Source: Jiangella endophytica
GTDB taxonomy: Bacteria > Actinomycetota > Actinomycetes > Jiangellales > Jiangellaceae
Length of the DNA: 64,000 nucleotides
Reading direction: 5' to 3'
Assembly (NCBI RefSeq): GCF_003427025.1
Contig: NZ_QVAI01000008.1
Location: forward strand, 124,001 to 188,000
The notes beneath the pieces were generated by a model, which saw only the letters and a list, made by a program, of their open reading frames with translations, made no database searches and was not told where the DNA came from. Made by a program: the position numbers and the translations under genes. Below are positions 7,931-26,006 of the stretch, piece by piece. Each line of letters starts with the position of its first letter. Position 1 is the stretch's first letter.

Positions 7931-9565
7931 CTACCCCGCCTGCGGGGCGGGCGGCCGGGTGGTGCCAGGCGGTACGGCGCAGACGGTGCCGTCGGCGGGG
8001 AGGGTCCGGTCGATGAGCGCCGCGTCGACCGCGTCGTCGACGCACGGGCCACTGGTGCGGTACGAGGTGTGGCCCACGCCTTCGCGGGTCAGCAGGACGG
8101 CGTCCTCCAGACGCGCGGTCATGGCCTCGGCCCAGTGGTGCGGCGAGACGTTGTCCAGGCGGCCGCCGACCACCAGGATCGGCGGGGCGCCGGCGCCGGT
8201 GAGCTCCTGCGTGAACCGGTCCTCGTTCTCGGCGGGCCACAGCGCACAGTTGAGGGCACTGTAGGCGGCCCGGCTGCCCAGCCGCTCGCCGCGTGCGTCG
8301 ATCTTCTTCGCCGCGGCACGATGCTCGGGCAGTCTGCCCAGCTCCGGCCAGTCGGCGCACCGGACGCCGGTATGCGGCTCCTGGAGGGTCGCGAACGGAC
8401 CGCCGAACGGCGTGACCGTGACGTTCGAGACCATGACATGCAGGAACGTGCCGTCGCCCTGCTGCGCGCCGAGCAGCCCCGCCGCGAGCACGGGCCAGAG
8501 CACCCGGTTGCCGGCGGCGGCTCGCACGCCCTCGAGCGCCATCGCGCCGTCGAGCGCGCCGCCGGGCGTGAGCCCCTCGACCGGCGGGACCTGCAGCGGC
8601 TCCGCCTCCAGGGCGGCGATCAGGTCGTCGAACGCGGCCTCAGGGTCAGCGTCGCCGAACGCGCACACCTCCGCGCCCTCGGCGCGGCAGGTCTCGAACC
8701 AGGCGTCGAGCGTCTCCTCGTTGGACACCGCGACCTCGTCGAGGAGCCGCAGCGGGTCGTGCTGCCAGAGTTCGGTGTCGACCGGGGCGTCGATGACCAT
8801 CTGGCGGACGCGGTCAGGGAACAGCGTGGCGTACATGGGCCCCACCACCGTGCCGTAGGAGGCGCCGTAGAAGGTGATCTGTTCCTCACCGAGCGCGGCG
8901 CGCACCTGGTCCAGGTCTCGCGCCACGTTGTCGGTGGACAGGCTCGCCAGGAACGCGGGGCTCTGGTGGTCCAGGCAGCCCTTCGTGAAGGTGCGGGCGT
9001 CGAGAAGCAGCCGGCCGAACGGCTTCCCGCCGGGGATGGTCGGGTCGCGGTCCTCGGCCGCCTGCTCGGCCCGCTGCTCGTCGGTGAGGCAGCGCACGGC
9101 GCCGGACTCACCGACACCGCGCGGGTCCACGCCGACGACGTCGAACCGGGCGACGACGTCGGGCGAGTACGGGCCCGCGTCGTTGGCGGCGTCGATGGAC
9201 GCCACCGTCTCGGTGGCGGGCACGCCCGGGCCGCCCGGGTTGATGAACAGGCTGCCGATGCGCCGGTCCGGATCGGTGGCGCGGTGCCGGGTCACGGCGA
9301 GCGGGATCTGCTCGCCGTCGGGGTCGGTGTACTCCAGCGGTACCTCGACGGTGGCGCAGTCCAGGCCGCTCCCGCATTCCTCCCAGTCGACCGGGTCGGG
9401 GACGGGCGCAGGCACGGACGGGCTGGAGGTGGCGGCCGGGTCGTCCGGCGACGCCGTGCTGGTCCCGCCGGCGAGGCCGGTCAGGGCCAGCGCGGCGACA
9501 GCCAGCACCGAGGCGATCCGTCGGGGTGCCTGGGACGCGCGGGCCGGTCGGGGTGGGAGTGGCAT
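7931..9565 (-). CDS. Secreted alpha/beta hydrolase, tripeptidyl aminopeptidase type (TAP-like C-terminus)
   Basis: A 544-residue exported serine hydrolase of the SlpD/SlpE/Tap group, which releases tripeptides or esters outside the cell. Start ATG 9565 gives a signal peptide (RR near 15, hydrophobic core SVLAVAALALTGLAGG). The oxyanion region INPGGPG is at about 109-114, the nucleophile is Ser236 in GASYGT, and the acid and His appear in VGGRLDNVSPHHW and GVGHTSY within the C-terminal TAP-like domain. Cys residues in CGSGLDC and near the C-terminus could form disulfides, as in the family. The reading frame is open further upstream but without a signal peptide. It is followed at its 3' side only by the decayed tRNA region. 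Confidence 0.85.
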   Translation of the reverse strand: MPLPPRPARASQAPRRIASVLAVAALALTGLAGGTSTASPDDPAATSSPSVPAPVPDPVDWEECGSGLDCATVEVPLEYTDPDGEQIPLAVTRHRATDPDRRIGSLFINPGGPGVPATETVASIDAANDAGPYSPDVVARFDVVGVDPRGVGESGAVRCLTDEQRAEQAAEDRDPTIPGGKPFGRLLLDARTFTKGCLDHQSPAFLASLSTDNVARDLDQVRAALGEEQITFYGASYGTVVGPMYATLFPDRVRQMVIDAPVDTELWQHDPLRLLDEVAVSNEETLDAWFETCRAEGAEVCAFGDADPEAAFDDLIAALEAEPLQVPPVEGLTPGGALDGAMALEGVRAAAGNRVLWPVLAAGLLGAQQGDGTFLHVMVSNVTVTPFGGPFATLQEPHTGVRCADWPELGRLPEHRAAAKKIDARGERLGSRAAYSALNCALWPAENEDRFTQELTGAGAPPILVVGGRLDNVSPHHWAEAMTARLEDAVLLTREGVGHTSYRTSGPCVDDAVDAALIDRTLPADGTVCAVPPGTTRPPAPQAG

Positions 9566-9687
9566 GGCATCGACGCTATGCGGGCCGTCCGGCGCCAGCA
9601 TCCGCCGAAGGGTTCGGACCGGAAGACCAAAGTCGCAGTGCCGGCGCGGCCCGGCGGGTTGCGGTCCAGGCGCGGGACCCACCCTCC

Positions 9688-10275
9688 TCAGCGTCGGACC
9701 GGATAGCGCAGGTGCAGGGCCCGCCGGCCCTGCACGACCACCGGGTCCTCGAGCAGCTGGTGTCCGCCCTCGAGGGTCGAGAAGTACGCGATGCCCTCGC
9801 CGAACAGCACCGGAACGAGGCTCACGCAGACCTCGTCGAGCAGGCCGAGGGCGAGTGCCTGCTGGGTGATGTTCGCGCTCGCGATCGTGACGTCCTTGTC
9901 CCCGGCGATCCGCTTCGCCCGCTCGACCGCCGCCTCGACGCTGTCGACGAAGGTCGTGGTGGGCCACCTCTCGGCGGCGTCCGCGGGCGGGCGGTGCGTC
10001 ACCACGACGACGGGTGAGCCGGCGGGGTGCTGGTCGTCCCAGCCGTCGGCGATGTCGAACAGGCGCCGGCCGGCGATCAGCGCGCCGACGTTCTCGGTCA
10101 GCTCCCGCAGCACCGTGGCGCTCGCCTCGTCGACGGCGAACCTGACGGTCTCGTTGGGATTCTCGACGGCGACGTCACCGGCTTCGTACCACTCGAACAG
10201 CTCGCCGATCCCGTCGTCGGGCTGGGCGATGTAGCCGTCCAGCGACATCGTCATGTGGCTCAGGACCTTGCCCAT
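9688..10275 (-). CDS. Dihydrofolate reductase family protein (RibD C-terminal type)
   Basis: A 195-residue cytoplasmic NADPH-binding protein of the RibD-C/YyaP/YwjB group, which reduces unknown pterin- or pyrimidine-like substrates. The N-terminus KVLSHMTMSLDGYIA is the family signature, followed by ALIAGRRLFD, the VVVVTH strand, and the C-terminal LDEVCVSLVPVLFGEG motif. ATG 10275 is fixed by a near-perfect AAGGAGGT ribosome site 5 nt upstream. The gene lies 122 bp upstream of the secreted hydrolase and in the same direction. Substrate cannot be deduced. Confidence 0.85.
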   Translation of the reverse strand: MGKVLSHMTMSLDGYIAQPDDGIGELFEWYEAGDVAVENPNETVRFAVDEASATVLRELTENVGALIAGRRLFDIADGWDDQHPAGSPVVVVTHRPPADAAERWPTTTFVDSVEAAVERAKRIAGDKDVTIASANITQQALALGLLDEVCVSLVPVLFGEGIAYFSTLEGGHQLLEDPVVVQGRRALHLRYPVRR

Positions 10276-10322
10276 CGTGGACCTCCTTCGTCAGCCGTAC
10301 CGACCTCCCGCGGCCGGTGAAC

Positions 10323-11894
10323 TCATCGCGGCAGCGCCGACCACAGGTCGCAGCGGTGGCCGGCCGCGAACGGCGCCGGGCCGACGTGGTCCGCCGACAG
10401 GCCGAGCACGGTACCGGTCGCACCGAGCTCCGGCCAGGAGGTGCGGCCGGGACCGTTGGGGTCACCGGTGCGGGCGAACGCCGCCCAGTAGTCGATCATC
10501 GTCGCCGACAGGCGCTCCTGGTCCGGGCCCAGCGGCGGGTACGGGTCCCAGGCCAGGTCCAGGTCCCACAGGTACGGCAGCTCCAGGCCGTGGAACGCGC
10601 CCATCGGAAAGCCCTGCTCCACCACGCCGCTGTCCTCGGCGAACTCGTAGGCGTAGACCGGCTGGTGGACGGCGGCGGCCTCGGCCGTGCGCAGCACCGG
10701 GCAGGCGCCGATCCACGCGCCCCAGTCGCCCAGCACCGTCGCCAGCGCGACCGCCGGGTCGTCATCGCCCAGCGGGTATTCCGCCAGCACCGTCGCCGCG
10801 TCGGCGCCGAACGCGTCGGTGAGCAGCGTGGCGTAGTCGTCCGCCGTCACCGTCTCACCGACGACGAACGCCCGCATCTCGTCCCTGGTGGCGCCCGTCA
10901 GCAGCGGGACCCGAGCGGCCGAGCCGTCGCGCAGGGCGTCGGCCGGCTGACGGGGCAGCAGCGGCGTCCCCGCGACAGGGTTCCACGGCCGGTCCGCGAC
11001 CCGGGCGGTCAGGTCGGTCCCGATTCCCGCGAGCGCGGCCACCAGCCGGTCCAGCGGAAGGTCGCGCAGGCACCCCGCCACGTCGGCGGCCTCGGCACAC
11101 CCGAGCTCGGTCGTCGCCCGTTCGCCGAACGCCCGCGCCTCGGCCAGCGTCGGCACGGGGTTGTCGCAGGCGCCGCTCTGCACGATCGCCCGGTGGAACA
11201 GGCCGCGTGCCTCGGGCGAGGCGAGCTGGGCGCACACCGAGCGGGCGCCCGCGGACTGGCCGGCCAGCGTGACGTTGCCCGGGTCGCCGCCGAACCGCGC
11301 CGCGTTGCGACGGACCCAGCGCAGCGCCGCCGCCTGGTCCATCAGCCCGTAGTTGCCGCCCACGGCGTCGAGCGACGGTGCGGACAGGAAACCGAGCGCG
11401 CCGAGCCGGTAGTTCACGGTCACGACGACGACGTCGCCCGCGGTGGCGAGCCGGGCACCGTCGTACTCGCGCGCACCGCCGGTGGTGAAGCCGCCGCCGT
11501 GCAGCCAGACGAGCACCGGCAGCCGGTCGCCGCGCCCGGCGCCGGCCGGCACGGTGACGTCGAGGTACAGGCAGTCCTCCTGCCCGGCGACGACGTCCCG
11601 CCCCGCGCGATGCGGACAGAACGGGCTCGGCGTGGTGGCATCGCGGACGCCGCGCCACGGCCGGGTGCCGGCCGGCGGCTGCCACCGCCGCTCCCCCACC
11701 GGCGGCGCCGCGTAAGGGATGCCGGCGTAGGTGACGTGGTCGCCGGCCACGCTGCCGCGCAGCCAGCCCGAGTCGACCCGGACGACGCCCGGCTCCGGCG
11801 GACCCACGGCCGGTGCGGGCGCGGCGACGACGGCGGTGACGATGACGGTGGCGGCAACGGTGGACAGGACTCGGGCGAGGGCACGCATCGACAT
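10323..11894 (-). CDS. Secreted type-B carboxylesterase
   Basis: A 523-residue exported esterase/lipase of the carboxylesterase B family. The first 30 residues are a signal peptide (RALARVLSTVAATVIVTAVVAAPAPA). The signature EDCLYLDVTVP, the oxyanion sequence WLHGGGF, the nucleophile elbow GQSAGA and the C-terminal His in AFHGLELPYLWD are all present, so the catalytic triad appears complete. Length is normal for bacterial members. The start follows MSMRAL; ATG 11888 two codons in is also possible. It ends 47 bp before the start of the reductase gene and could be co-transcribed with it. Confidence 0.88.
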   Translation of the reverse strand: MSMRALARVLSTVAATVIVTAVVAAPAPAVGPPEPGVVRVDSGWLRGSVAGDHVTYAGIPYAAPPVGERRWQPPAGTRPWRGVRDATTPSPFCPHRAGRDVVAGQEDCLYLDVTVPAGAGRGDRLPVLVWLHGGGFTTGGAREYDGARLATAGDVVVVTVNYRLGALGFLSAPSLDAVGGNYGLMDQAAALRWVRRNAARFGGDPGNVTLAGQSAGARSVCAQLASPEARGLFHRAIVQSGACDNPVPTLAEARAFGERATTELGCAEAADVAGCLRDLPLDRLVAALAGIGTDLTARVADRPWNPVAGTPLLPRQPADALRDGSAARVPLLTGATRDEMRAFVVGETVTADDYATLLTDAFGADAATVLAEYPLGDDDPAVALATVLGDWGAWIGACPVLRTAEAAAVHQPVYAYEFAEDSGVVEQGFPMGAFHGLELPYLWDLDLAWDPYPPLGPDQERLSATMIDYWAAFARTGDPNGPGRTSWPELGATGTVLGLSADHVGPAPFAAGHRCDLWSALPR

Positions 11895-11997
11895 GCCGGT
11901 CAGTCTTCAGAGCCGGCCCCCGCGGCGCGTCCGCTCAGCAGACCGATCTCCCGTACGCCGAGCCGCGTACGCCCTACGTCGAGCCGCGTACGCCGGC

Positions 11998-12576
11998 TCA
12001 GGGCGGCGGCGCGAACGCGTCGGCGGCCGCCCGGACGCGGGCGAGGTAGGTACTCCACGTCGCGGCATCGCCCAACTCGTCGTGGTCGGCGCCGGCCTTG
12101 CCGTCGATGAGCTCGCGGACGATGTCGGCGTGGCCGGCGTGCCGGGCGGTCTCGGCCAGCATGCGGATGAGCAGCACCCCGAGCGTGGTGTCGGCGCGTT
12201 CGGCCGGCCAGTGCGGCACCCGGCCCGCAGTGTCGAGGCCGAGTTCCTCGATCGTCAGGTCGCCGTGCGCGCACGCCCGCCGGTACAGGCCGAGGATGTA
12301 CTCGCTGGACTCCGACGGTGTCGCCCACATGTCGGCGCCCTCCCACACCGAGCCGTCCTCCTCCCACGCCAGGGTCTCGGGCGGTGTGCGGCCGAAGGAC
12401 GTGCCGAGGTAGACGTACTCGCCCCCGGCCAGGTGCTTGGCCAGCCCGAGCAGGTTGGTGCCGGTGGGCGTCAGCGGCCGGCGCAGGTCGTACTCGCTCA
12501 GCCCGTCGAGCTTGGACATCAGCCCCTCGCGAGCCTCGTGCAGTTTGCGGTGCAGCTCAGCCTTCAGGTCCGCCAT
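11998..12576 (-). CDS. DinB-family protein
   Basis: A 192-residue four-helix-bundle protein of the DinB/DUF664 group. Members are metal-binding proteins, some of which are bacillithiol or mycothiol-dependent transferases. The sequence begins MADLKAELHRKLHEAREG, and the candidate metal-site His residues are in LAKHLAGGEYVY and ARHAGHADIVREL. Two further ATG-free upstream codons give a long antisense frame through the next gene; the ATG at 12576 is the natural start. It is divergent from the ComB-like gene, with 48 bp between the starts. Confidence 0.85.
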   Translation of the reverse strand: MADLKAELHRKLHEAREGLMSKLDGLSEYDLRRPLTPTGTNLLGLAKHLAGGEYVYLGTSFGRTPPETLAWEEDGSVWEGADMWATPSESSEYILGLYRRACAHGDLTIEELGLDTAGRVPHWPAERADTTLGVLLIRMLAETARHAGHADIVRELIDGKAGADHDELGDAATWSTYLARVRAAADAFAPPP

Positions 12577-15383: not shown

Positions 15384-16187
15384 ATGGAGACGACCCGGCG
15401 ACCCAACGTCGAGTACGGCGACCCCGACGTCGCGCTGCCCAACGAGATCCTGCGCTCGGTGGTCGGCTCGGGCGTGCACGGCATCGCCATCGCCGGCACC
15501 GACGACCACGACGAGATGGGCGTCTACATCGAGCCTCCCGAGTCGGTCGTCGGCCTGCTCCCCCGGCAGCCGCACTACGTCTGGCGCACCCAGCCCGAGG
15601 GCGTGCGGTCCGGCCACGGCGACACCGACCTCGTCCTCTACTCCCTGCGCAAGTACCTGAAGCTGGCGCTCAAGGGCAACCCGACGGTGCTGCTGCCGTT
15701 GTACGCGCCCGAGGCCGACCTCGTCGTCGTCAGCCCGCTCGGTACGGAGCTGCGGGCGCTCGCCGGCGCGTTCCTGTCGCGGCAGGCGGCCGAACGGTTC
15801 CTCGGCTACATGACGGCGCAGCACGAGCGGATGCTCGGCAGCGGCAGGCGCAACCGGGTGCCGAACCGGCCCGAACTGATCGAGCGCTACGGCTGGGACG
15901 TCAAGTACGGCAGCCACGCGCTGCGGCTGGCCTACCAGGGCCGAGAGATCGCGCTGGACGGACGACTCAGCCTGCCGCTGCGCCCGGACGAGCGCGAGCG
16001 GGTGCTCGCGGTCAAGCGCGGCGAGGTCGCCCGCGACGAGGTCTCGGTCGAGATCACGGCGGTCGAGGCGGAGGTACGGACGGCCCTCGACGGCGGCCGC
16101 TCGCCGCTGCCGCCCGAGGCCGACCGCCGCCGCATCTCCGCCTGGGCCGTCGACGCCCAGCGACGGCACTGGGGCTGGGCCGGCTGA
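15384..16187 (+). CDS. RlaP-type nucleotidyltransferase
   Basis: A 267-residue protein of the DNA polymerase beta-like nucleotidyltransferase superfamily, closest in look to RlaP (RNA ligase-associated, PF10127). The signature is VGSGVHGIAIAGTDDHDEMG, giving the Gly-Ser and the metal-binding DxxD residues, followed by YSLRKYLKLALKGNPTVL and the later KYGSHALRLAYQGREI. Family members are thought to act in RNA repair beside an RNA ligase. No ligase gene is close by, so the gene is an orphan. Reading starts at ATG 15384; no strong ribosome site precedes it. Confidence 0.8.
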   Translation: METTRRPNVEYGDPDVALPNEILRSVVGSGVHGIAIAGTDDHDEMGVYIEPPESVVGLLPRQPHYVWRTQPEGVRSGHGDTDLVLYSLRKYLKLALKGNPTVLLPLYAPEADLVVVSPLGTELRALAGAFLSRQAAERFLGYMTAQHERMLGSGRRNRVPNRPELIERYGWDVKYGSHALRLAYQGREIALDGRLSLPLRPDERERVLAVKRGEVARDEVSVEITAVEAEVRTALDGGRSPLPPEADRRRISAWAVDAQRRHWGWAG

Positions 16188-17341: not shown

Positions 17342-17371
17342 TTGACGTGCATGCAAAAGCCCCTTTACTGT
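17342..17371 (+). promoter_or_regulatory. Putative promoter of the copper-protein gene set
   Basis: TTGACG (17342-17347) and TACTGT (17366-17371) with an 18-bp spacer form a good vegetative-type promoter in a locally AT-richer patch. It lies 130 bp before the multicopper oxidase start and would drive all three downstream genes, which have gaps of only 86 and 118 bp. Confidence 0.6.
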
Positions 17372-17501: not shown

Positions 17502-18542
17502 ATGGCTGACAACCCCGTCCGACGCGGCTGGTTAGGGCACCTCTCCCGCCGGTCGGTGCTGGCCGGCGCGGTCGCGAGTGCGGCCTTCCCCGCCGTCGCC
17601 GCGAGCACGAGCGCGGCGCCGTCGAGCCCCAGCTCGGCCGCCGTACCCGGGCTGCGCACGGCCCGGGCCGCCGGCACGACCCAGCGGGTGACGATCTACG
17701 CCGAGGCGCTGTCCGGCGGCCGGTTCGGCTACGGGCTGGCACCCGGCGAGGCGACCATCCCCGGCCCGCTGCTGGAGATCGTCGAGGGCGACACCCTGGA
17801 GATCACGCTGGTCAACACGACGAGCCAGCGGCTCTCGATCCACCCGCACGGCGTCGACTACGACGTCTTCTCCGACGGGTCCCCGTTCAACGCCTCCTTC
17901 AACGAGCCCGGCGAGACGCGCACCTACGTGTGGCGCAGCAAGGAACGCACCTCGGCCGGCGGCCGGGGCTGGCTGCCGGGAACGGCCGGCTACTGGCACT
18001 ACCACGACCACGCGCTGGGCGGCGACCACGGCACCCAGGGACTCCAGAAGGGCCTGTACGGCGGTCTCATCGTGCGCCGCAAGGGCGACCTGCTGCCGGA
18101 CAAGACGTTCGTCGTCGTGTTCAACGACATGACGATCAACAACCTGATGGCGCCGATGACGCCGATGTTCGACGCCGTCCTGGGTGAGCGCGTGGAGTGG
18201 CTGTGCATCGGCCACGGAAGCATGGAACACACCTTCCACCTGCATGCTCACCGCTGGGCCGACAACCGGACCGGGTACCTCGACGGGCCGAACGACCTGA
18301 CCCAGGCCGTCGACAACAAGGATCTCAACCCCGGCAGCTCGTTCGGGTTCCAGGTGATCGCCGGCGACGGCGTCGGCGCGGGCGCGTGGATGTACCACTG
18401 CCACGTGCAGTTCCACTCCGACGGCGGCATGGCCGGCGTCTTCCTGGTCCGCAACGAGGACGGCAGCATCCCCGACCACGCACAGGAGGCGATCGAGCGG
18501 TTCCACGGAGGACACGGGGGCCACCAGGGCCACGCGGGCTAG
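17502..18542 (+). CDS. Tat-exported two-domain multicopper oxidase (small-laccase type)
   Basis: A 346-residue copper oxidase expected to couple one-electron substrate oxidation to reduction of oxygen to water outside the membrane. The N-terminus carries a Tat motif SRRSVLAG followed by a hydrophobic segment. All copper-ligand blocks are visible: HPHG, YWHYHDHALGG, HTFHLHAHRW and YHCHVQFHSDGGM, the Cys and Met of the last giving a type 1 site. At this length it has two cupredoxin domains, as in small laccases that work as trimers. The C-terminus is His-rich (ERFHGGHGGHQGHAG). ATG 17502 follows GGAG at 5-6 nt. It is first in a three-gene set with a sugar dehydrogenase and a cupredoxin. Confidence 0.9.
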   Translation: MADNPVRRGWLGHLSRRSVLAGAVASAAFPAVAASTSAAPSSPSSAAVPGLRTARAAGTTQRVTIYAEALSGGRFGYGLAPGEATIPGPLLEIVEGDTLEITLVNTTSQRLSIHPHGVDYDVFSDGSPFNASFNEPGETRTYVWRSKERTSAGGRGWLPGTAGYWHYHDHALGGDHGTQGLQKGLYGGLIVRRKGDLLPDKTFVVVFNDMTINNLMAPMTPMFDAVLGERVEWLCIGHGSMEHTFHLHAHRWADNRTGYLDGPNDLTQAVDNKDLNPGSSFGFQVIAGDGVGAGAWMYHCHVQFHSDGGMAGVFLVRNEDGSIPDHAQEAIERFHGGHGGHQGHAG

Positions 18543-18628
18543 TCGCCGAGCGCCCGCACGACACCACCCACATCGATCAGGGCCGAGAACGCACAGGCAC
18601 GAGCGCACATCGATTCGAAGGAGCAACG

Positions 18629-21600
18629 ATGAGACGCACCAGCCTCGTCCGTCCGGAGGGAGGACCACCGGCGCGATCCGCACGGTGGCGCCGGACGTTC
18701 GTCCTGGCGAGTACGGCGGTCCTGGCGCTCAGCGTGAGCGCGCTGCCCGCGCAGGGGCAGCCCGAGCAGCCCGAACCGTCCGAGCCCTCGCCCAGCGCCT
18801 CGAGCGCGCCGGCCGCGAAGTCCCCCGACGCCGCGGACAACGCCAGCCCGGCCGCCCGCCAGGCCCTCAGCGCCGCCAAGGCGAACAACGCCGACGGCGC
18901 CGCCAAGGTGCTGGTCTTCCACGGCCCAGCCGACGAGCAGGACGATCCCGTCGCGACCGCAGTCGCGGCGGTCCAGGAGCTGGGCGCCGCGAGCGGCCTC
19001 GGCGTCGACGTGTCGACCGATCCGGCCAGCTTCTCCGCGGAGACGCTCGCCGCGTACCGGGGCGTCGTCTTCCTGTCCGCCATGGGCACCGAGCTGTCGC
19101 CGTCGCAGGAGGACGCGCTCGAGGCCTACATCGAGGACGGCGGCGGCTTCCTCGGCATCGGCGACGCGTCGCGCGCGCAGGAGCGGTCGGAGTGGTTCAC
19201 CGGGCTGATCGGTACCCGGCCGGTCGGCGCGCTGCCGGACTCGCTCGACATCGCCGCGGTCAGCGCCACGGCGAACAACCCGCCCAACGAGGACGCGGCG
19301 AAGGTCGTCGACGGCAACGTCAACACCAAGTGGCTGGGGTTCGTGCGCACGGCGCAGATCACGGTCCGGCTGACCGAGCCGGCCGCGGTGAACCAGTACG
19401 CGCTGGCGTCGGCCAACGACTCCGCCGGCCGCGACCCGCAGGACTGGACGATCCAGGGCTCGAACGACGGGACGACGTGGGTCGACCTGGACCGCCGCAC
19501 CAACGAGGACTTCCCGGAGCGGTTCCAGGTCAAGGCCTACGAGTTCGCCAACACCACGGAGTACCTGCACTACCGCCTCGACATCACCCGCAACTCCGGC
19601 GACACCATCACCCAGCTGGCCGAGTGGCAGCTGTTCGCCGGCGAGGTCGTCGAGCCGGAGCCGGTGCAGCCGCAGGAGGCCACCGTCAGCATCGTCGACC
19701 GGCAGCACCCGGCCAACGACGGCCTGCCGCTGACGCTGACCCGCACCGACCGGTGGACCAACTGGGCCCCGAACCCCGTCGGCACCGTGCATACCGTCGC
19801 ACAGGTCCAGGAGCGCACCTACGAGCCCGGCGAGGGCGCCAACGGCGCGTTCCACCCGATCTCGTGGTGTCGTGACTACGACGGCGGCCGCTCCTTCTAC
19901 ACGGGCATGGGCGGCACGGCCGAGAGCTGGGACGAGGCGGAGTTCCGCAGCCACGTCACCGGCGCGCTGCAGTGGGCCACGGGCCTCGTCCGCGGCGACT
20001 GCCAGGCCACCATCGGCGCGAACTACGACGTCGAGCGGCTGTCCGCGGTGAACCAGACCGGGCAGCTGGACCAGAACGGCGAGCCGCACGGCCTCGACGT
20101 CGCCGCCGACGGCACCGTCTTCTACATCGGCAAGGCGGCCTGCGCCACCGGCCCCGTCGTCCCCTGGGAGAACGCGAACGTCGGCCGCGGCTGCGGCACC
20201 ATCCACCAGTGGGACCCGGAGACGGGTGACGTGCAGCTGCTGACCACGCTGGACGTGTTCGGCAACCGCGGCAGCGGCGGCGAGCTGGTCAAGACCGAGG
20301 AGGGCCTGGTCGGCATCGCGCTGGACCCGGCGTTCGCCGAGAACGGCTGGATGTACGTCTACTGGATGCCGTACGAGTCGATCGACAAGGTCCGCCGCGT
20401 CGGCGACCGGACGGTGTCGCGGTTCACCTACGACCACCAGACCCAGCAGATCGACCTCGGCAGCCGCGAGGACCTGCTGTCGTGGGAGACGCAGATCCAC
20501 AGCTGCTGCCACGCGGGCGGCGGCATGGACTTCGACTCCGAGGGCAACCTGTACATCGGCGTCGGCGACGCCAACTCGTCGGGCGGCTCGAGCGGGTACT
20601 CCGGCAACAACTGGACCCAGGAGTTCGCGGGCATCTCGTTCCAGGACGCCCGCCGCACGTCGGGCAACACGAACGACCTGAACGGCAAGATCCTGCGCAT
20701 CCACCCGGAACCCGACGGCACCTACACCATCCCGGACGGGAACCTGTTCACCGGCCAGGAGGAGGGCGGCGGCAAGACCCGGGCCGAGATCTACGTCATG
20801 GGCGTGCGCAACATCTCGACCCTGTACGTGGACACGGTGACGGACTACCTGCACGCCGCCTGGGTCGGCCCCGACGCCGGCGGCCCGAACGCGGACCTCG
20901 GCCCGGCCAAGTACGAGACGGCGACGATCATCACGTCGGCGGGCAACCAGGGCTGGCCGTTCTGCATGGGCAACCGGCAGCCGTACCGCGACCGCAGCAA
21001 CACCGACGCGACGGTGCTGACCGACTGGTACGACTGCAAGGGCAACCTGCTGAACACCTCGCCGCGCAACACCGGCCTGGTGGACATCCCCGACGCCCGC
21101 GACAACATGATCTGGTACTCCCCGCAGGGCGGCAACCCGGACTTCCCGGACCGCGGCGACGGCGTCCCGACGTACGACAACGACGACGCCACCTACGGGT
21201 TCCCGTACATGCGCAGCGGCGGCTGCCAGGCCGTCATGACCGGCCCGACGTTCCGCGAGTCGCTGGTCGACACCGGCAGCGGGGTCTCGTGGCCGTCGTA
21301 CTGGGAGGGCAAGTGGATCCTCGGTGACAACTGCGGCTCGAGCAGCCGCATCGCCGTCACCGTGGACCCCGAAGGCATCGAGGAGCAGGCCCCGCCGCTG
21401 TTCGCGGAGAACCTGACCTCGATCATCCCGCACGGCGGCGCCAACGACCAGCTGCAGAGCTGGATGATGACGTCGCGGTTCGGCCCGGACGGCGCGCTCT
21501 ACATGTCCGACTACAGCGGCGGGTTCTTCAGCCTCACCCCGAACCAGAAGCTGATCCGCGTGGTCTACAACGGCGGCCCGGCCACCCCGGTGGCGTCGGC

Positions 21601-22723
21601 GTCGGCGACGGCCGTGCAGAACAAGCCGCTGACCATCGCCTTCACCGGCGCCCGCTCCGGCGGCGTGTCCTACGCGTGGGACTTCGGCGACGGCGCCACG
21701 TCGGACGAGGCGAACCCGCGGCACACCTACGCCGCGGTGGGCTCGTACACCGCGACGCTCACCGTGACGTACGCGGACGGCGAGACCATGACCACCGAGG
21801 TCGAGGTCACCGTCGGCTGCGCCGTGCCGGACGACCGCGGCACCGTGTGGCTGCGCGACACCGACACCGGCGTGACCAACGACGTCGTCGGCGAGGGCTG
21901 CACCATCAACGACCTCATCGACGACGAGAGCAGCTGGCCGAACCACGGCCAGTTCGTCCGGCACGTCACGGACGTCGCGAACGGCCTGTCGGCCGACGGG
22001 ATCATCACGGCCCGCGAGAAGGCCACGCTGACCCGGCTCGCGGCGCAGTCCGAGATCGGCAAGCCGGGTGACACCGGCTGGGACGCCATCTTCGACGGGA
22101 CCGCCGAGTCCCTCGAGGGCTGGGCCCAGGCGCCGGGCGGCTTCTTCGAGCTGCAGGGCGACGGGACGATCATCAGCCGCGGCGGGCTGGGCATGCTCTG
22201 GTACGCCGAGCGGGAGTTCGCCGACTACTCGGTGCGGCTGCAGTTCCGCGACGTCTCGCCCGGCACCACCCGCGCCAACAGCGGTGTGTTCATCCGGTTC
22301 CCGAACCCGAACCAACCGCTGGCGGAGCGGCCGGAGTGCGGCCGCGTCGGTTCCGCGGCGAACTCGCCGGCCTGGGTCGCGATCTACTGCGGCCAGGAGA
22401 TCCAGATCTACGACGGCGCCACCGGCGAGGTGCAGAAGACCGGGTCGGTCTACAACTTCGACCCGATCGCTCTGCCCGGTTCGGGCGCCACGCCGAAGGG
22501 CGAGTGGAACGACTACGAGATCCGGGTCGAGGGCCAGCACTACACGATCATCCGCAACGGCGCGGTGATCAACGAGTTCGACAACGTGCCTGGCATCGCG
22601 TCGTCGCGCGCGGGTGACCCGCCGACCGACCTGCGCCAGTTCCTCAGCGGATACATCGGGTTGCAGAACCACGGCAACAACGACCTGATCGAGTTCCGCA
22701 ACATCCGGGTCCGGGAGCTCTAG
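18629..22723 (+). CDS. Secreted ThuA / discoidin / PQQ-type sugar dehydrogenase / PKD / DUF1080 protein
   Basis: A 1364-residue exported multidomain protein. ATG 18629 follows GAAGGAG. After a signal peptide (to about residue 48) come a ThuA domain (about 91-452) interrupted by an F5/8-type-C carbohydrate-binding domain (about 206-338, VVDGNVNTKWLGF to EWQLFAG), a glucose/sorbosone dehydrogenase beta-propeller (about 465-977; HSCCHAGGGMDFDSEGNLY, GNLFTG), a PKD domain (about 984-1063; WDFGDGATSDEANPRHTY), an unrecognised domain (about 1064-1145; GCTINDLIDDE, NHGQFVRHV), and a DUF1080/laminin-G-like domain (about 1149-1364). It likely binds and oxidises a complex sugar at the cell surface. ThuA domains are linked to sugar metabolism. 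The GSDH domain would need PQQ; no PQQ genes are in the window. Confidence 0.88.
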   Translation: MRRTSLVRPEGGPPARSARWRRTFVLASTAVLALSVSALPAQGQPEQPEPSEPSPSASSAPAAKSPDAADNASPAARQALSAAKANNADGAAKVLVFHGPADEQDDPVATAVAAVQELGAASGLGVDVSTDPASFSAETLAAYRGVVFLSAMGTELSPSQEDALEAYIEDGGGFLGIGDASRAQERSEWFTGLIGTRPVGALPDSLDIAAVSATANNPPNEDAAKVVDGNVNTKWLGFVRTAQITVRLTEPAAVNQYALASANDSAGRDPQDWTIQGSNDGTTWVDLDRRTNEDFPERFQVKAYEFANTTEYLHYRLDITRNSGDTITQLAEWQLFAGEVVEPEPVQPQEATVSIVDRQHPANDGLPLTLTRTDRWTNWAPNPVGTVHTVAQVQERTYEPGEGANGAFHPISWCRDYDGGRSFYTGMGGTAESWDEAEFRSHVTGALQWATGLVRGDCQATIGANYDVERLSAVNQTGQLDQNGEPHGLDVAADGTVFYIGKAACATGPVVPWENANVGRGCGTIHQWDPETGDVQLLTTLDVFGNRGSGGELVKTEEGLVGIALDPAFAENGWMYVYWMPYESIDKVRRVGDRTVSRFTYDHQTQQIDLGSREDLLSWETQIHSCCHAGGGMDFDSEGNLYIGVGDANSSGGSSGYSGNNWTQEFAGISFQDARRTSGNTNDLNGKILRIHPEPDGTYTIPDGNLFTGQEEGGGKTRAEIYVMGVRNISTLYVDTVTDYLHAAWVGPDAGGPNADLGPAKYETATIITSAGNQGWPFCMGNRQPYRDRSNTDATVLTDWYDCKGNLLNTSPRNTGLVDIPDARDNMIWYSPQGGNPDFPDRGDGVPTYDNDDATYGFPYMRSGGCQAVMTGPTFRESLVDTGSGVSWPSYWEGKWILGDNCGSSSRIAVTVDPEGIEEQAPPLFAENLTSIIPHGGANDQLQSWMMTSRFGPDGALYMSDYSGGFFSLTPNQKLIRVVYNGGPATPVASASATAVQNKPLTIAFTGARSGGVSYAWDFGDGATSDEANPRHTYAAVGSYTATLTVTYADGETMTTEVEVTVGCAVPDDRGTVWLRDTDTGVTNDVVGEGCTINDLIDDESSWPNHGQFVRHVTDVANGLSADGIITAREKATLTRLAAQSEIGKPGDTGWDAIFDGTAESLEGWAQAPGGFFELQGDGTIISRGGLGMLWYAEREFADYSVRLQFRDVSPGTTRANSGVFIRFPNPNQPLAERPECGRVGSAANSPAWVAIYCGQEIQIYDGATGEVQKTGSVYNFDPIALPGSGATPKGEWNDYEIRVEGQHYTIIRNGAVINEFDNVPGIASSRAGDPPTDLRQFLSGYIGLQNHGNNDLIEFRNIRVREL

Positions 22724-22841
22724 CCCCCCGGCGGCCGGCCGGTGCGGGCGCGACCTACCCCCGGGTCGCGCCCGTCCCGGCGGGCCTCGGCCGCCGGGAC
22801 GCTCGGCGTCTCGCGGATTCACGAAAGAGGTGCGGCACTTC

Positions 22842-25800
22842 ATGCTTCAACGACTCTGGGCGGACCTCACCGGCCGCCATCCCTCGACGGGCCGGTCCGG
22901 CCGCCGGCGGGTGACGCCCCAGGGCGTCGTCGTCGCGGTGCTGACCATGGCCCTCATGGCCGTCGGCCTGGTACCGACGGCCGCCGCCCTGCGCGGCGCG
23001 CCGGCGGCCACGTCGACGTCGTCCGCCTCTGCCGGCGCGGCCGAGACCGCGGCGGCGCAGACACTCACCTGGACCGGCAACAACAGCGTGACGGCGTACG
23101 GGACGGCCCCGACGACGGCGGTGGCCGGGCCGACGACGATCGTCTTCGAGAACAGCGTGGCCACCGGCAACACCAGCGGCATGCCGCACACGCTGACGTT
23201 CGAGACCGGCGACCCGCAGTACAACCAGGACGTCGTCCTCGACATCACGGCGAACCCGTTCGACCCGAACGGCGGACGTCACGAGGTCGAGGTCGTCCTG
23301 ACGCCGGGTGTCTACCGCTACTTCTGCGCGTTCCCCGGGCACGGCTCGATGACCGGTCTGCTGGTCGTCACCGACGGTCCCGAGGACACCACCCCGCCGG
23401 AGGTGTCCGCGCAGGTCACCGGCGACCAGAACGCCGACGGCGACTACGTCGGATCGGCCACCGTCACGGTGAGCGCGACGGACACCGGCTCGGGCGTCGA
23501 CACCATCGAGTACGAGATCGACGACCTCGGATTCCAGCCCTACACCGCCCCGGTGGTGGTCGACGAGGTCGGCGACCACTCGGTGCAGTACCGCGCCACG
23601 GACAATGCCGGCAACACCTCCGAGGTCGAGTCGGTGCAGTTCACCGTCGCCGAGCCGGAGCCGGACGACACCACTCCGCCGGACGTCTCGGCAGCGGTCT
23701 CCGGCGAGCAGGACGACGACGGCAACTACGTCGGGTCGGCGACGGTCACCGTGACGGCGACCGACGCGGAGTCCGGCGTCGCGTCGGTCGAGTACGCGCT
23801 GGACGGCGGCGCCTTCCAGGCCTACACCGCGCCCGTCGTGGTCTCGGCCATCGGCGCGCACACGGTGCAGTACCGGGCGACCGACAACGCGGGCAACGTC
23901 GCGCCGGTCGAGTCGGCGGCGTTCACCGTCGTCGAACCGGAGCCGGACGACACCACCCCGCCGGACGTCTCGGCGGCCGTGTCCGGTGACCAGAACGCCG
24001 ACGGCGACTACGTCGGGTCGGCGACCGTGACGATCACCGCGACGGACGCGCAGTCCGGCGTCGCGTCGGTCGAGTACAGCCTGAACGGCGCCGCGTTCGC
24101 CCCGTACACCGCGCCCGTCGTGGTCTCGTCGGTCGGCGACCACACGGTGCAGTACCGGGCGACCGACAACGCCGGCAACGTCGCGCCCGTCGAGGCCGTC
24201 CAGTTCACCGTCGTCGAACCGGAGCCGGACGACACCACCCCGCCGGACGTCTCGGCGACCGTGTCCGGCGAGCAGAACGACGAGGGCGACTACGTGGCGT
24301 CGGCGACCGTGACGGTCACGGCGACCGACGCCGAGTCGGGCGTCGCGTCGATCGCGTACGCGCTGGACGGCGGCTCGTTCCAGCCGTACACGACCCCGGT
24401 CGTCGTGACGGCGCTGGGCGAGCACACGGTGCAGTACCGCGCGACGGACAACGCCGGCAACACCTCGCCGGTCGAGTCCGTGACCTTCACCGTCGTCGAA
24501 CCGGAGCCCGACGACACCACCCCGCCCGAGACGTCGGCCGCCGTCACCGGCGACCAGAACGCCGACGGCGACTACGTCGGGTCGGCCACGGTGACGATCA
24601 CCGCGTCGGACGCGCAGTCGGGCGTCGCGTCGATCGAGTACAACCTCGACGGCGCCGGCTTCACCGCCTACACGACGCCACTGGTCGTCAGCGCGCTCGG
24701 CGACCACACCGTGCAGTACCGGGCGACCGACAACGCCGGCAACGTCGCGCCGGTCGGGTCGGTGGCCTTCACCGTCGTCGAGCCGGAGCCGGACGACACC
24801 AGGCCGCCGGACGTCTCGGCCGCTGTCGCGGGTGACCAGAACCCGGACGGCGAGTACGTCGGGTCGGCGACCGTGACGATCACCGCGACGGACGCGCAGT
24901 CCGGCGTCGCGTCGATCGCGTACGCGCTGGACGGCGGCTCGTTCCAGCCGTACACGACCCCGGTCACCGTCTCCGCCGTCGGCGACCACGTCGTCCAGTA
25001 CCGGGCGACCGACAACGCCGGCAACACCTCGCCGGTCGAGTCCGTCGCGTTCACCGTCGTCGCGCCGGAACCGGACGACACCACCCCGCCCGAGACGTCG
25101 GCCGCCGTCACCGGCGACCGGAACGACGAGGGCGACTACATCGGGGCCGCGACGGTGACCGTCACCGCGACGGACGCGCAGTCCGGCGTCGCGTCGATCG
25201 AGTACAACCTCGACGGCGCCGGCTTCACCGCCTACACGGCGCCGGTCGTCGTCTCGTCGGTCGGCGACCACACCGTGCAGTACCGGGCGACCGACAACGC
25301 CGGCAACGTCGCGCCGGTCGAGTCCGTCGCGTTCACCGTCGTCGCGCCCGAGCCGGACGACACCACGCCGCCGACCGTGGCGGCGTCGGTGGCGGGCGAG
25401 CAGAACCCGGACGGCGCCTACGTCGACTCCGCGACCGTCACCGTCACCGCGACGGACGCCGAGTCCGGCGTCGCGTCGGTCGTCTACTCGCTCGACGACG
25501 GCGCGTTCGTGCCGTACACCGGGCCGGTCGTCGTCTCGTCGGTCGGCGAGCACACCGTCCGGTACCGGGCGACGGACCACGCGGGCAACGAGTCCGAGGC
25601 CGGGTCGGTGACGTTCACCGTCGTCGAGCGCGACGGGGACGCCTGCCCCGACTCGGACACCCGCCCGACGGTGGTCATCGGCGGCCTCGACTCGCTCGTG
25701 GCCAACGTCGACCGCGGCGACGGCTGCACCATCAACGACCTCATCGACGACGAGGGCGAGTGGGCCAACCACGGCCAGTTCGTCCGGCACGTCACCGAGG

Positions 25801-26006
25801 TCGCGAACCAGCTGGTCACCGCCGGCGTCATCACCGGCCGGGAGCGGGGCATGCTGACCCGCACCGCGGCCCAGTCCGAGGTCGGCAAGACGCCGCCGGC
25901 CGAGTCGGTACCGGCCGAGCCGGCCGCGGCGAAGGCCTCGGCCGCAGCCGCACCCGCCGAGCCGTCGATCGAGGAGGCGCTCGCGCACCACGCCGGACAC
26001 CACTGA
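22842..26006 (+). CDS. Secreted cupredoxin with eight OmpL47-like repeats
   Basis: A 1054-residue exported protein. ATG 22842 was chosen over GTG 22830 because GAGG lies 11 nt before it and inside the ribosome-site range, whereas for the GTG the site overlaps the codon. After a signal segment (about 26-50) comes a type 1 copper domain (about 75-177) with ligands in MPHTLTFE and YFCAFPGHGSMTG (His, Cys, His, Met). Eight repeats of about 94 residues follow (about 181-929; TTPPDVSA, YRATDNAGN), then the same unrecognised domain as in the preceding protein (GCTINDLIDDE, NHGQFVRHV; about 933-1016) and an Ala/Glu tail ending HHAGHH. It probably shuttles electrons while the repeat stalk positions it at the surface. 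Confidence 0.88.
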   Translation: MLQRLWADLTGRHPSTGRSGRRRVTPQGVVVAVLTMALMAVGLVPTAAALRGAPAATSTSSASAGAAETAAAQTLTWTGNNSVTAYGTAPTTAVAGPTTIVFENSVATGNTSGMPHTLTFETGDPQYNQDVVLDITANPFDPNGGRHEVEVVLTPGVYRYFCAFPGHGSMTGLLVVTDGPEDTTPPEVSAQVTGDQNADGDYVGSATVTVSATDTGSGVDTIEYEIDDLGFQPYTAPVVVDEVGDHSVQYRATDNAGNTSEVESVQFTVAEPEPDDTTPPDVSAAVSGEQDDDGNYVGSATVTVTATDAESGVASVEYALDGGAFQAYTAPVVVSAIGAHTVQYRATDNAGNVAPVESAAFTVVEPEPDDTTPPDVSAAVSGDQNADGDYVGSATVTITATDAQSGVASVEYSLNGAAFAPYTAPVVVSSVGDHTVQYRATDNAGNVAPVEAVQFTVVEPEPDDTTPPDVSATVSGEQNDEGDYVASATVTVTATDAESGVASIAYALDGGSFQPYTTPVVVTALGEHTVQYRATDNAGNTSPVESVTFTVVEPEPDDTTPPETSAAVTGDQNADGDYVGSATVTITASDAQSGVASIEYNLDGAGFTAYTTPLVVSALGDHTVQYRATDNAGNVAPVGSVAFTVVEPEPDDTRPPDVSAAVAGDQNPDGEYVGSATVTITATDAQSGVASIAYALDGGSFQPYTTPVTVSAVGDHVVQYRATDNAGNTSPVESVAFTVVAPEPDDTTPPETSAAVTGDRNDEGDYIGAATVTVTATDAQSGVASIEYNLDGAGFTAYTAPVVVSSVGDHTVQYRATDNAGNVAPVESVAFTVVAPEPDDTTPPTVAASVAGEQNPDGAYVDSATVTVTATDAESGVASVVYSLDDGAFVPYTGPVVVSSVGEHTVRYRATDHAGNESEAGSVTFTVVERDGDACPDSDTRPTVVIGGLDSLVANVDRGDGCTINDLIDDEGEWANHGQFVRHVTEVANQLVTAGVITGRERGMLTRTAAQSEVGKTPPAESVPAEPAAAKASAAAAPAEPSIEEALAHHAGHH
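23385..25630 (+). repeat. Eight in-frame tandem repeats of about 282 bp
   Basis: Each copy encodes about 94 residues with the order DDTTPP(D/E)(V/T)SA, GDQNADGDYVGSATVT, TATDAxSGVASxEY, PYTxPVVVS, GDHTVQYRATDNAGN, FTVVEPEP. The pattern matches OmpL47-type bacterial Ig-like domains. Neighbouring copies share long nearly identical DNA blocks, so recent duplication or gene conversion is likely and copy number may vary between strains. Confidence 0.9.

Follow-up and report, generated by a model that had tools for sequence, protein, structure and literature searches.

A conserved set of genes for three secreted proteins

In a 64,000-nucleotide stretch of the Jiangella endophytica genome (positions 124001-188000 of a contig in the 7.85-Mb genome; hereafter the window), three open frames on the forward strand encode secreted products: a two-domain small laccase (SLAC), a multidomain dehydrogenase-like protein (BIG) and a cupredoxin with repeats (CUP). 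The genes are separated by 86 bases (SLAC-BIG) and by 106-118 bases (BIG-CUP, depending on the CUP start). A sequence-only reading of this DNA had described three secreted proteins with their domains and copper ligands, tightly spaced after one good promoter. The proteins, domains and ligands are present as placed, and the two short gaps on one strand bear out the spacing. The promoter is unconfirmed, because a stricter consensus scan found none, the element at 17342-17369 included; this element (TTGACG-16-TTTACT) is only fair.

We searched 393 genomes of the class for each of the three genes; the cut-offs were E <= 1e-8 for the CUP cupredoxin domain, E <= 1e-20 for the SLAC core and E <= 1e-40 for the BIG GSDH domain. 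In each genome a few top-ranking first-look candidates were scored (four for GSDH), so that misses are possible. SLAC was found in 48/393 genomes and CUP in 48/393, and the 48 are identical. The GSDH matches split into an ortholog group of at least 546 bits, present in 47 genomes, and paralogs of at most 260 bits; with paralogs counted, 79/393 genomes match. The BIG ortholog occurs in 47 of the 48 SLAC-CUP genomes and in none of the 345 others. Match starts for all three genes lie within 3.2-6.0 kb in 46 of the 48, the exceptions being G309 and G434; in G434 the trio is divided by contig ends. Within one genus (g202), genome G462 has all three, and four other genomes are without SLAC, CUP and the BIG ortholog together. 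Conserved co-occurrence, which the sequence-only reading had set beforehand as its test, is strongly positive; the trio is a genuine unit with a wide distribution. Among the matches listed by an open-access literature search, we found no description of a SLAC-BIG-CUP unit.

A contig search with BIG returned 31 loci, with SLAC in 30 and a cupredoxin in 29. These loci come from Jiangella, Phytoactinopolyspora, Amycolatopsis, Saccharomonospora, Promicromonospora, Umezawaea, Phytohabitans, Georgenia, Nocardioides, Motilibacter, Actinokineospora, Prauserella, Streptomyces and one metagenome-assembled genome. The nearest named relatives found are Jiangella, with 80-93% identity in the best BIG segment (records very near the window may have been omitted). 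Both loci without CUP (L041, and L043, which also lacks SLAC) have 100-N scaffold gaps right after BIG, and L043 has one right before it as well; the gaps fall at the expected sites of the absent genes. SLAC-BIG-CUP is the order in most loci; SLAC is divergent in Streptomyces and Motilibacter, Phytohabitans has CUP-SLAC-BIG, and Nocardioides has BIG-CUP-SLAC. In four named Streptomyces loci (L058, L059, L060 and L064), two C-terminal parts of BIG described below, the shared module and the DUF1080 domain, are found on CUP and are missing from BIG. Gene order and domain allocation vary while the gene set stays.

The conserved region does not extend beyond the three genes: gene clusters present in at least 5 of 22 neighbourhoods all overlap SLAC, BIG or CUP, and no further common gene occurs in more than 4/22. 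A LacI-type regulator is found in 4/22 neighbourhoods and adjoins the SLAC gene in Streptomyces fungicidicus (L111:5498-7598), a hint at carbohydrate control.

Comparison of the loci also shows that the unit outlasts exchange of its laccase. The SLACs of Phytohabitans (L049, L057) and Nocardioides (L055) are 45-53% identical to the other SLACs compared and 58-59% identical between the two genera, and they retain all copper ligands; the GSDH domains of the same loci are 71-80% identical to other non-Streptomyces GSDH domains. In genome G431 (L103), SLAC is Streptomyces-like (66-72%) and GSDH is not (58-59%). The SLAC slot has therefore been refilled and the unit kept.

Copper sites and domain architecture

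SLAC begins with a twin-arginine leader (RRSVLAG) and ends in a His-rich tail. It matches Cu-oxidase_2 and Cu-oxidase_3 in Pfam, each above cut-off, and scores 401 bits against crystallised two-domain laccases in a PDB search. We placed its copper ligands at H114, H116, H168, H170, H243, H246, H248, H299, C300, H301, H305 and M310. In an alignment of 43 SLACs, one per locus and the window's own included, all 12 ligand positions (10 His, one Cys and the axial Met) are kept in 43/43 sequences; L110 equals L056 in sequence, so this count and the counts of 38 below each contain one duplicate. By sequence and ligands, SLAC is thus a member of the two-domain family of the known small laccases SLAC, Ssl1 and SilA. 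The SLAC of the trio on plasmid p1 of S. fungicidicus matches 5lhl_A at 676 bits and 3cg8_A, the S. coelicolor enzyme (excerpt of PMC9692349), at 652 bits, nearly over its full length; that record is annotated with a "multicopper oxidase domain-containing protein", a "ThuA domain-containing protein" and a "family 16 glycoside hydrolase". To judge from these matches, the trio SLACs are the crystallised, well-studied kind of small laccase. In the literature excerpts used here, small laccases have been under study as catalysts since about 2004, the enzyme (SLAC, Ssl1 or SilA) is treated alone with partner genes unnamed, and most characterised bacterial laccases are said to have no known function (PMC3527528).

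For CUP, Copper-bind scores 25.2 bits on the domain alone and 20.1 bits on the whole protein (cut-off 21.2), and the His, Cys, His and Met ligands are kept in 38/38 CUP sequences. The sequence-only account of CUP was right about a complete His-Cys-His-Met type 1 site; it had missed eight OmpL47-type repeats and a C-terminal module of about 84 residues common to BIG and CUP. Two cysteines of this shared module are invariant in 37 aligned copies, and its structure model reaches a pLDDT of 94 (modelled from alignment A4 without row L067). It has no Pfam match and no PDB fold match below E 3.1. We considered the module as a specific docking device between BIG and CUP; this idea is weakened by its occurrence at 18 places in the window's genome, the BIG and CUP copies included (E <= 0.003), and the module seems to serve secreted proteins in general. 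Separately, at locus L100, a SLAC (9110-10471) and a cupredoxin protein (11026-12435) carry almost the same module at their C-termini, as though both were bound for one place.

BIG proved to be more elaborate than the sequence-only reading had described. The GSDH propeller is present as claimed (PF07995, 71.6 bits), and the ThuA domain, its F5/8-type-C insert, the PKD domain and the 3keto-disac_hyd (DUF1080, PF06439) domain had been missed. The last of these has a sole PDB match, 3imm_A, at E <= 0.01. A structure model of the GSDH domain has a low mean pLDDT of 61 and finds sGDH (1qbi_A) as its best Foldseek match (E 1.2e-11); the model is too weak to place residues, and the argument on cofactor ligands made below therefore rests on sequence alignment. 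The genome holds 15 GSDH matches, BIG's own included, and a stretch of about 30 kb elsewhere on the window's contig, at contig positions 252131-282317 (L087, L088), contains five further matches.

The domains of BIG offer a clue to its substrate. In an excerpt of PMC9007349, the PF06439 family includes a named 3-ketotrehalose hydrolase, BT2157, and a proposed 3'-ketolactose hydrolase, and is also cited with an endo-xanthanase. Because BIG carries PF06439, it may attack a glycoside by oxidation at C3 and subsequent cleavage, and its 3-keto-disaccharide-hydrolase and ThuA domains together point to glycosides rather than free sugars as substrate. The known 3-keto-glycoside pathways (LacABC with DUF1080; BT2157) likewise place PF06439 beside a dehydrogenase (same excerpt); the LacABC dehydrogenases are membrane-bound and periplasmic, whereas in BIG the hydrolase domain and the GSDH propeller form one chain.

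We collect the features of the locus in Table 1. Upstream of the trio, at window positions 15384-16187, lies an apparently unrelated gene of the RlaP family (RNA-repair nucleotidyltransferases).

Table 1. Positions, in window coordinates, of the SLAC, BIG and CUP genes and of their parts.
Feature	Position	Strand	Basis and remarks
Promoter-like TTGACG-N16-TTTACT	17342..17369	+	Read in sequence; 132 bases upstream of SLAC start
SLAC, two-domain small laccase	17502..18542	+	Pfam, PDB relatives, ligand columns
BIG, secreted multidomain dehydrogenase-like protein, 1364 aa	18629..22723	+	Open reading frame, Pfam
ThuA domain of BIG	18902..19978	+	Pfam; start set by ThuA-like motif
F5/8-type-C (galactose-binding-like) insert within BIG ThuA	about 19262-19624	+	Pfam
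GSDH six-bladed-propeller domain of BIG	20054..21605	+	Pfam core 20288-20971; profile match to sGDH/Asd
His-Ser-Cys-Cys-His of BIG	20498..20512	+	Last His aligns with sGDH His144
PKD domain of BIG	21581..21814	+	Pfam
Shared module, BIG copy, about 84 aa	21815..22066	+	Sequence comparison with CUP
3keto-disac_hyd (DUF1080, PF06439) domain of BIG	22076..22714	+	Pfam, 114 bits against cut-off 26.8
CUP, secreted cupredoxin with repeats, 1054 aa	22842..26006	+	Open reading frame, Pfam; GTG 22830 alternative start
Type 1 cupredoxin domain of CUP	23037..23384	+	Pfam; ligand codons His 23187, Cys 23325, His 23340, Met 23349
Eight OmpL47-type / Ig-like repeats of CUP	23385..25634	+	NCBIfam NF047446, 8 stretches
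Shared module, CUP copy	25635..25892	+	Sequence comparison with BIG
Ala/Pro-rich CUP tail ending HHAGHH	25893..26003	+	Sequence

A candidate electron path from carbohydrate to oxygen

We propose that SLAC, BIG and CUP form one secreted redox unit, in which electrons would pass from the dehydrogenase to the cupredoxin, on to SLAC and finally to oxygen; we put the probability of this relay at roughly 55%. BIG would bind carbohydrate and oxidise it in its GSDH propeller, after which the oxidised glycoside may be cut by the 3-keto-disaccharide-hydrolase domain of the same protein. CUP would accept one electron at a time at its type 1 copper; the electrons would enter SLAC by way of the SLAC type 1 copper, and SLAC would reduce oxygen to water. 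We infer that electrons move at all, which way they go, what BIG oxidises and which cofactor it uses. The relay is the best-supported reading of the trio because of the co-occurrence of the three genes, the survival of the unit through SLAC exchange and changes of gene order, and fusions between GSDH domains and electron carriers.

Each half of such a chain has a precedent. Methylamine dehydrogenase passes single electrons to amicyanin, a cupredoxin, from which they go to cytochrome c; the step from quinoprotein to cupredoxin is as we propose, but the dehydrogenase is unrelated and the chain ends at cytochrome c with no laccase. At the other end, two-domain trimeric copper nitrite reductases (NirK) have azurins, pseudoazurins or c-type cytochromes as their electron donors, and NirK variants with fused cupredoxin or heme c exist (both from an excerpt of PMC6278305). 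The title of one paper, seen in a reference list, ties SLAC to nitrite reductases. A cupredoxin thus feeds a two-domain trimeric copper enzyme in the NirK chain, as proposed here for CUP and SLAC, and the cupredoxin gene of the trio is genetically tied to the oxidase gene by their presence in the same genomes. In contrast to the NirK chain, the trio would draw its electrons from a carbohydrate dehydrogenase and end at a laccase and oxygen, all on the outside of a Gram-positive cell.

The fusions came to light among relatives of the BIG propeller. A search of a plasmid collection with BIG gave 70 records, of which 25 were listed; eight of those are haloarchaeal, and we examined six. Haladaptatus pallidirubidus encodes two GSDH proteins with a C-terminal Copper-bind domain, and Halocatena salina encodes Copper-bind followed by GSDH in one protein, in each case with complete ligands. 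In Haladaptatus halobius, a gene 54 bases before GSDH has a product that matches the Haladaptatus cupredoxin at 61% and is without a Pfam match. In Halobaculum salinum, a gene for a high-potential iron-sulfur protein (HiPIP) overlaps one GSDH gene (L118:2189-4523) and a cupredoxin gene adjoins another, so that HiPIP is another likely carrier for the family. A Natronococcus protein (L115) combines DUF1080 and GSDH and shows no carrier in the protein scanned; a GSDH-cupredoxin fusion is found on the same plasmid (L123), and another in Halobaculum XH14 (L120). In Runella slithyformis, from the one Bacteroidota record examined, GSDH, PKD, cytochrome c and CBM6 follow one another in a single protein. 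These fusions are the best evidence that the GSDH family would feed small carriers.

Several observations weigh against the relay. The trio genomes fall into 8 genera and are for that reason not independent, and a Fisher value computed on the tally is no true probability. Two CUP matches are weak (G349 and G362, E about 1e-12), and the 4 of 17 first-look candidates scored in G309 include no BIG ortholog. Four of 59 SLAC matches have no CUP within 12 kb (G319, G434, G452 and G309); among 50 CUP matches, four have no BIG within 12 kb (G368, G411, G309 and G434) and one no SLAC (G434). G368 and G411 carry second loci (L100 and L101) with two SLACs and a CUP and no BIG nearby, which makes SLAC and CUP the tightest pair of the three. 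A third SLAC-CUP locus, L102 in G309, reaches the contig edge beside CUP, and BIG could therefore lie beyond that edge. In the haloarchaea, the cupredoxin-free query found a fusion in 2 of the 6 records examined, and the Haloferax larsenii protein (GSDH-PKD) has no carrier as scanned; the Natronococcus L123 and Halobaculum XH14 fusions came from a query that itself contained cupredoxin, so that they give no unbiased count of fusions. Small laccases also oxidise phenols, and a silA mutant of Streptomyces ipomoeae solubilises less lignin (excerpt of PMC5675413); phenols may therefore be the true donors of SLAC.

The remaining points against the relay concern the cofactor of BIG, which the sequence-only reading had called a dehydrogenase of the pyrroloquinoline quinone (PQQ) type. 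We aligned a profile of 17 BIG propellers to Acinetobacter calcoaceticus sGDH (1c9u_A), with chain numbering counted on the alignment and the C-terminal part unaligned. His144, Asp163, Arg228, Asn229 and the calcium motif Gly247-Pro248 of sGDH are kept in the BIG propellers, and the motifs HSCCH and MGVRN each occur in 38/38 trio dehydrogenases, the Cys-Cys of HSCCH occupying the place of sGDH Lys142-Asp143. Equivalents of Arg406 and Arg408, which hold the PQQ carboxylates, are absent from the trio dehydrogenases. The position five residues before the (G)PDG motif is Met in all 37 that could be scored (one of the 38 was unscored), and seven residues before it stands S, W, N, Q or A. The window's genome also encodes an Asd-like protein, GRLRDAVVAPDG, with Arg at both positions, and 2ism has Arg at the first, although that part of the alignment is not significant by itself. 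ThuA-GSDH paralogs are likewise without Arg at -5, and several keep the Arg at -7. The sGDH Lys377 region lies outside the coverage of the profile alignment, and BIG scores 46 bits against NCBIfam TIGR03606, below its cut-off of 434.55.

We take sGDH Arg406 to be the counterpart of AA12 Arg621. According to an excerpt of PMC6881789, arginines 430 and 621 of the fungal AA12 enzyme bind PQQ and are conserved in sGDH and Asd, sGDH Arg408 stands in for a third AA12 arginine, and Lys377 binds PQQ in sGDH; AA12 binds PQQ without equivalents of Arg408 and Lys377, so other residues could serve in BIG. The six-bladed propeller is common to BIG, A. calcoaceticus sGDH, Escherichia coli Asd and the AA12 domain of CcPDH; BIG differs from all three in the vicinal Cys-Cys before its active-site His and in the attached ThuA and DUF1080 domains, and where CcPDH has a cytochrome b domain the trio has CUP in its stead.

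The supply of PQQ is a second difficulty. PqqE (TIGR02109) falls below cut-off in 43 of the 48 trio genomes, the window's genome among them, and in 14/14 control genomes. The search itself works, since the five trio genomes above cut-off, all of one genus, score 486-567 bits; PF03070, tried as a PqqC marker, does not discriminate (17/22). Bacteria without PQQ synthesis can use external PQQ (excerpt of PMC6881789), so the absence of PqqE only weakens the PQQ reading. The label "PQQ-type" is therefore borne out in fold and in catalytic and calcium residues, but not in the two PQQ-holding arginines nor in PqqE of the window's genome. The sequence-only reading had named loss of the PQQ and calcium residues beforehand as evidence that would count against it, and this applies in part: the two arginines are gone and the catalytic residues are kept. 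The PQQ label for BIG is unsecured, though BIG may use scavenged PQQ.

The cofactor would be either scavenged PQQ, unusually bound, or another centre at His-Ser-Cys-Cys-His. Cys-Cys-His is not a trait of the trio alone: of the 18 other GSDH frames compared, 12 have it at the active-site His, as do both Haladaptatus proteins (all of these among L086-L088, L094-L099, L050 and L113), and the preceding His-Ser is trio-specific among the 18 frames compared. Quinoproteins of the methanol dehydrogenase type hold a vicinal disulfide over PQQ, and by this analogy HSCCH could either touch PQQ, having arisen by convergence, or form a different centre. A fuller version of the latter, in which BIG is a new, non-PQQ kind of propeller dehydrogenase whose redox centre, a metal such as copper or a vicinal disulfide, lies at HSCCH next to the retained catalytic residues, oxidises and cuts glycosides, and sends electrons through CUP to SLAC, strikes us as unlikely.

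Alternative readings and implications

The alternative that survives best is a lignin or phenol cycle, in which SLAC would make radicals or quinones that BIG re-reduces with sugar electrons, the coupling being diffusible and CUP an accessory carrier. Fungal sugar dehydrogenases reduce phenol radicals and quinones back in this way. The silA phenotype speaks for such a cycle, as does the swapping of SLAC without a matching change in BIG or CUP, which diffusible coupling predicts. However, the cycle gives no reason for CUP to occur in the same genomes as SLAC, and it leaves unexplained both the second loci that keep SLAC and CUP without BIG and the GSDH-cupredoxin fusions. We regard it as a tentative and rather doubtful explanation.

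Decidedly unlikely, in our estimate, is a role in copper supply, with CUP and the His-rich tails loading or storing copper for SLAC and BIG serving as a non-redox carbohydrate-binding scaffold. The His-rich ends of both SLAC and CUP fit this idea, as does the close pairing of their genes, but the type 1 site is complete in every CUP aligned, and a complete type 1 copper site is an electron-transfer rather than a chaperone site. The catalytic residues of BIG are conserved, and no other recurrent gene, copper-related or otherwise, accompanies the trio beyond the 4/22 neighbourhoods given above.

It is very improbable that the electrons go to a lytic polysaccharide monooxygenase (LPMO), instead of or besides SLAC: fungal sugar dehydrogenases are known LPMO partners, but LPMO_10, the one LPMO family searched for, gave no match in the window's genome (1/14 control genomes matched) and is disfavoured as acceptor. 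That the three are ordinary secreted genes and neighbours by chance is scarcely credible, for although GSDH paralogs of BIG are numerous in the genome, co-occurrence and linkage hold across families and changed gene orders, barring an artefact of genome sampling.

Returning to the relay, our analysis suggests that the small laccase of soil actinomycetes completes an extracellular electron chain by reducing oxygen. A partner set that accompanies SLAC in 47 to 48 of 48 SLAC genomes makes the question of its natural donor directly testable: is that donor a protein, and is the distal donor a glycoside? If so, SLAC may attack dyes and lignin only incidentally, and adding CUP and BIG could change the use of SLAC on biomass. 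Many "PQQ-dependent" annotations in genomes without PQQ synthesis would become questionable and, should the non-PQQ version hold, the unit would be an all-copper, membrane-free "oxidative glycosidase" that respires oxygen extracellularly. More broadly, if the relay is correct, a membrane-free oxygen-reducing chain would join the known means of extracellular carbohydrate oxidation.

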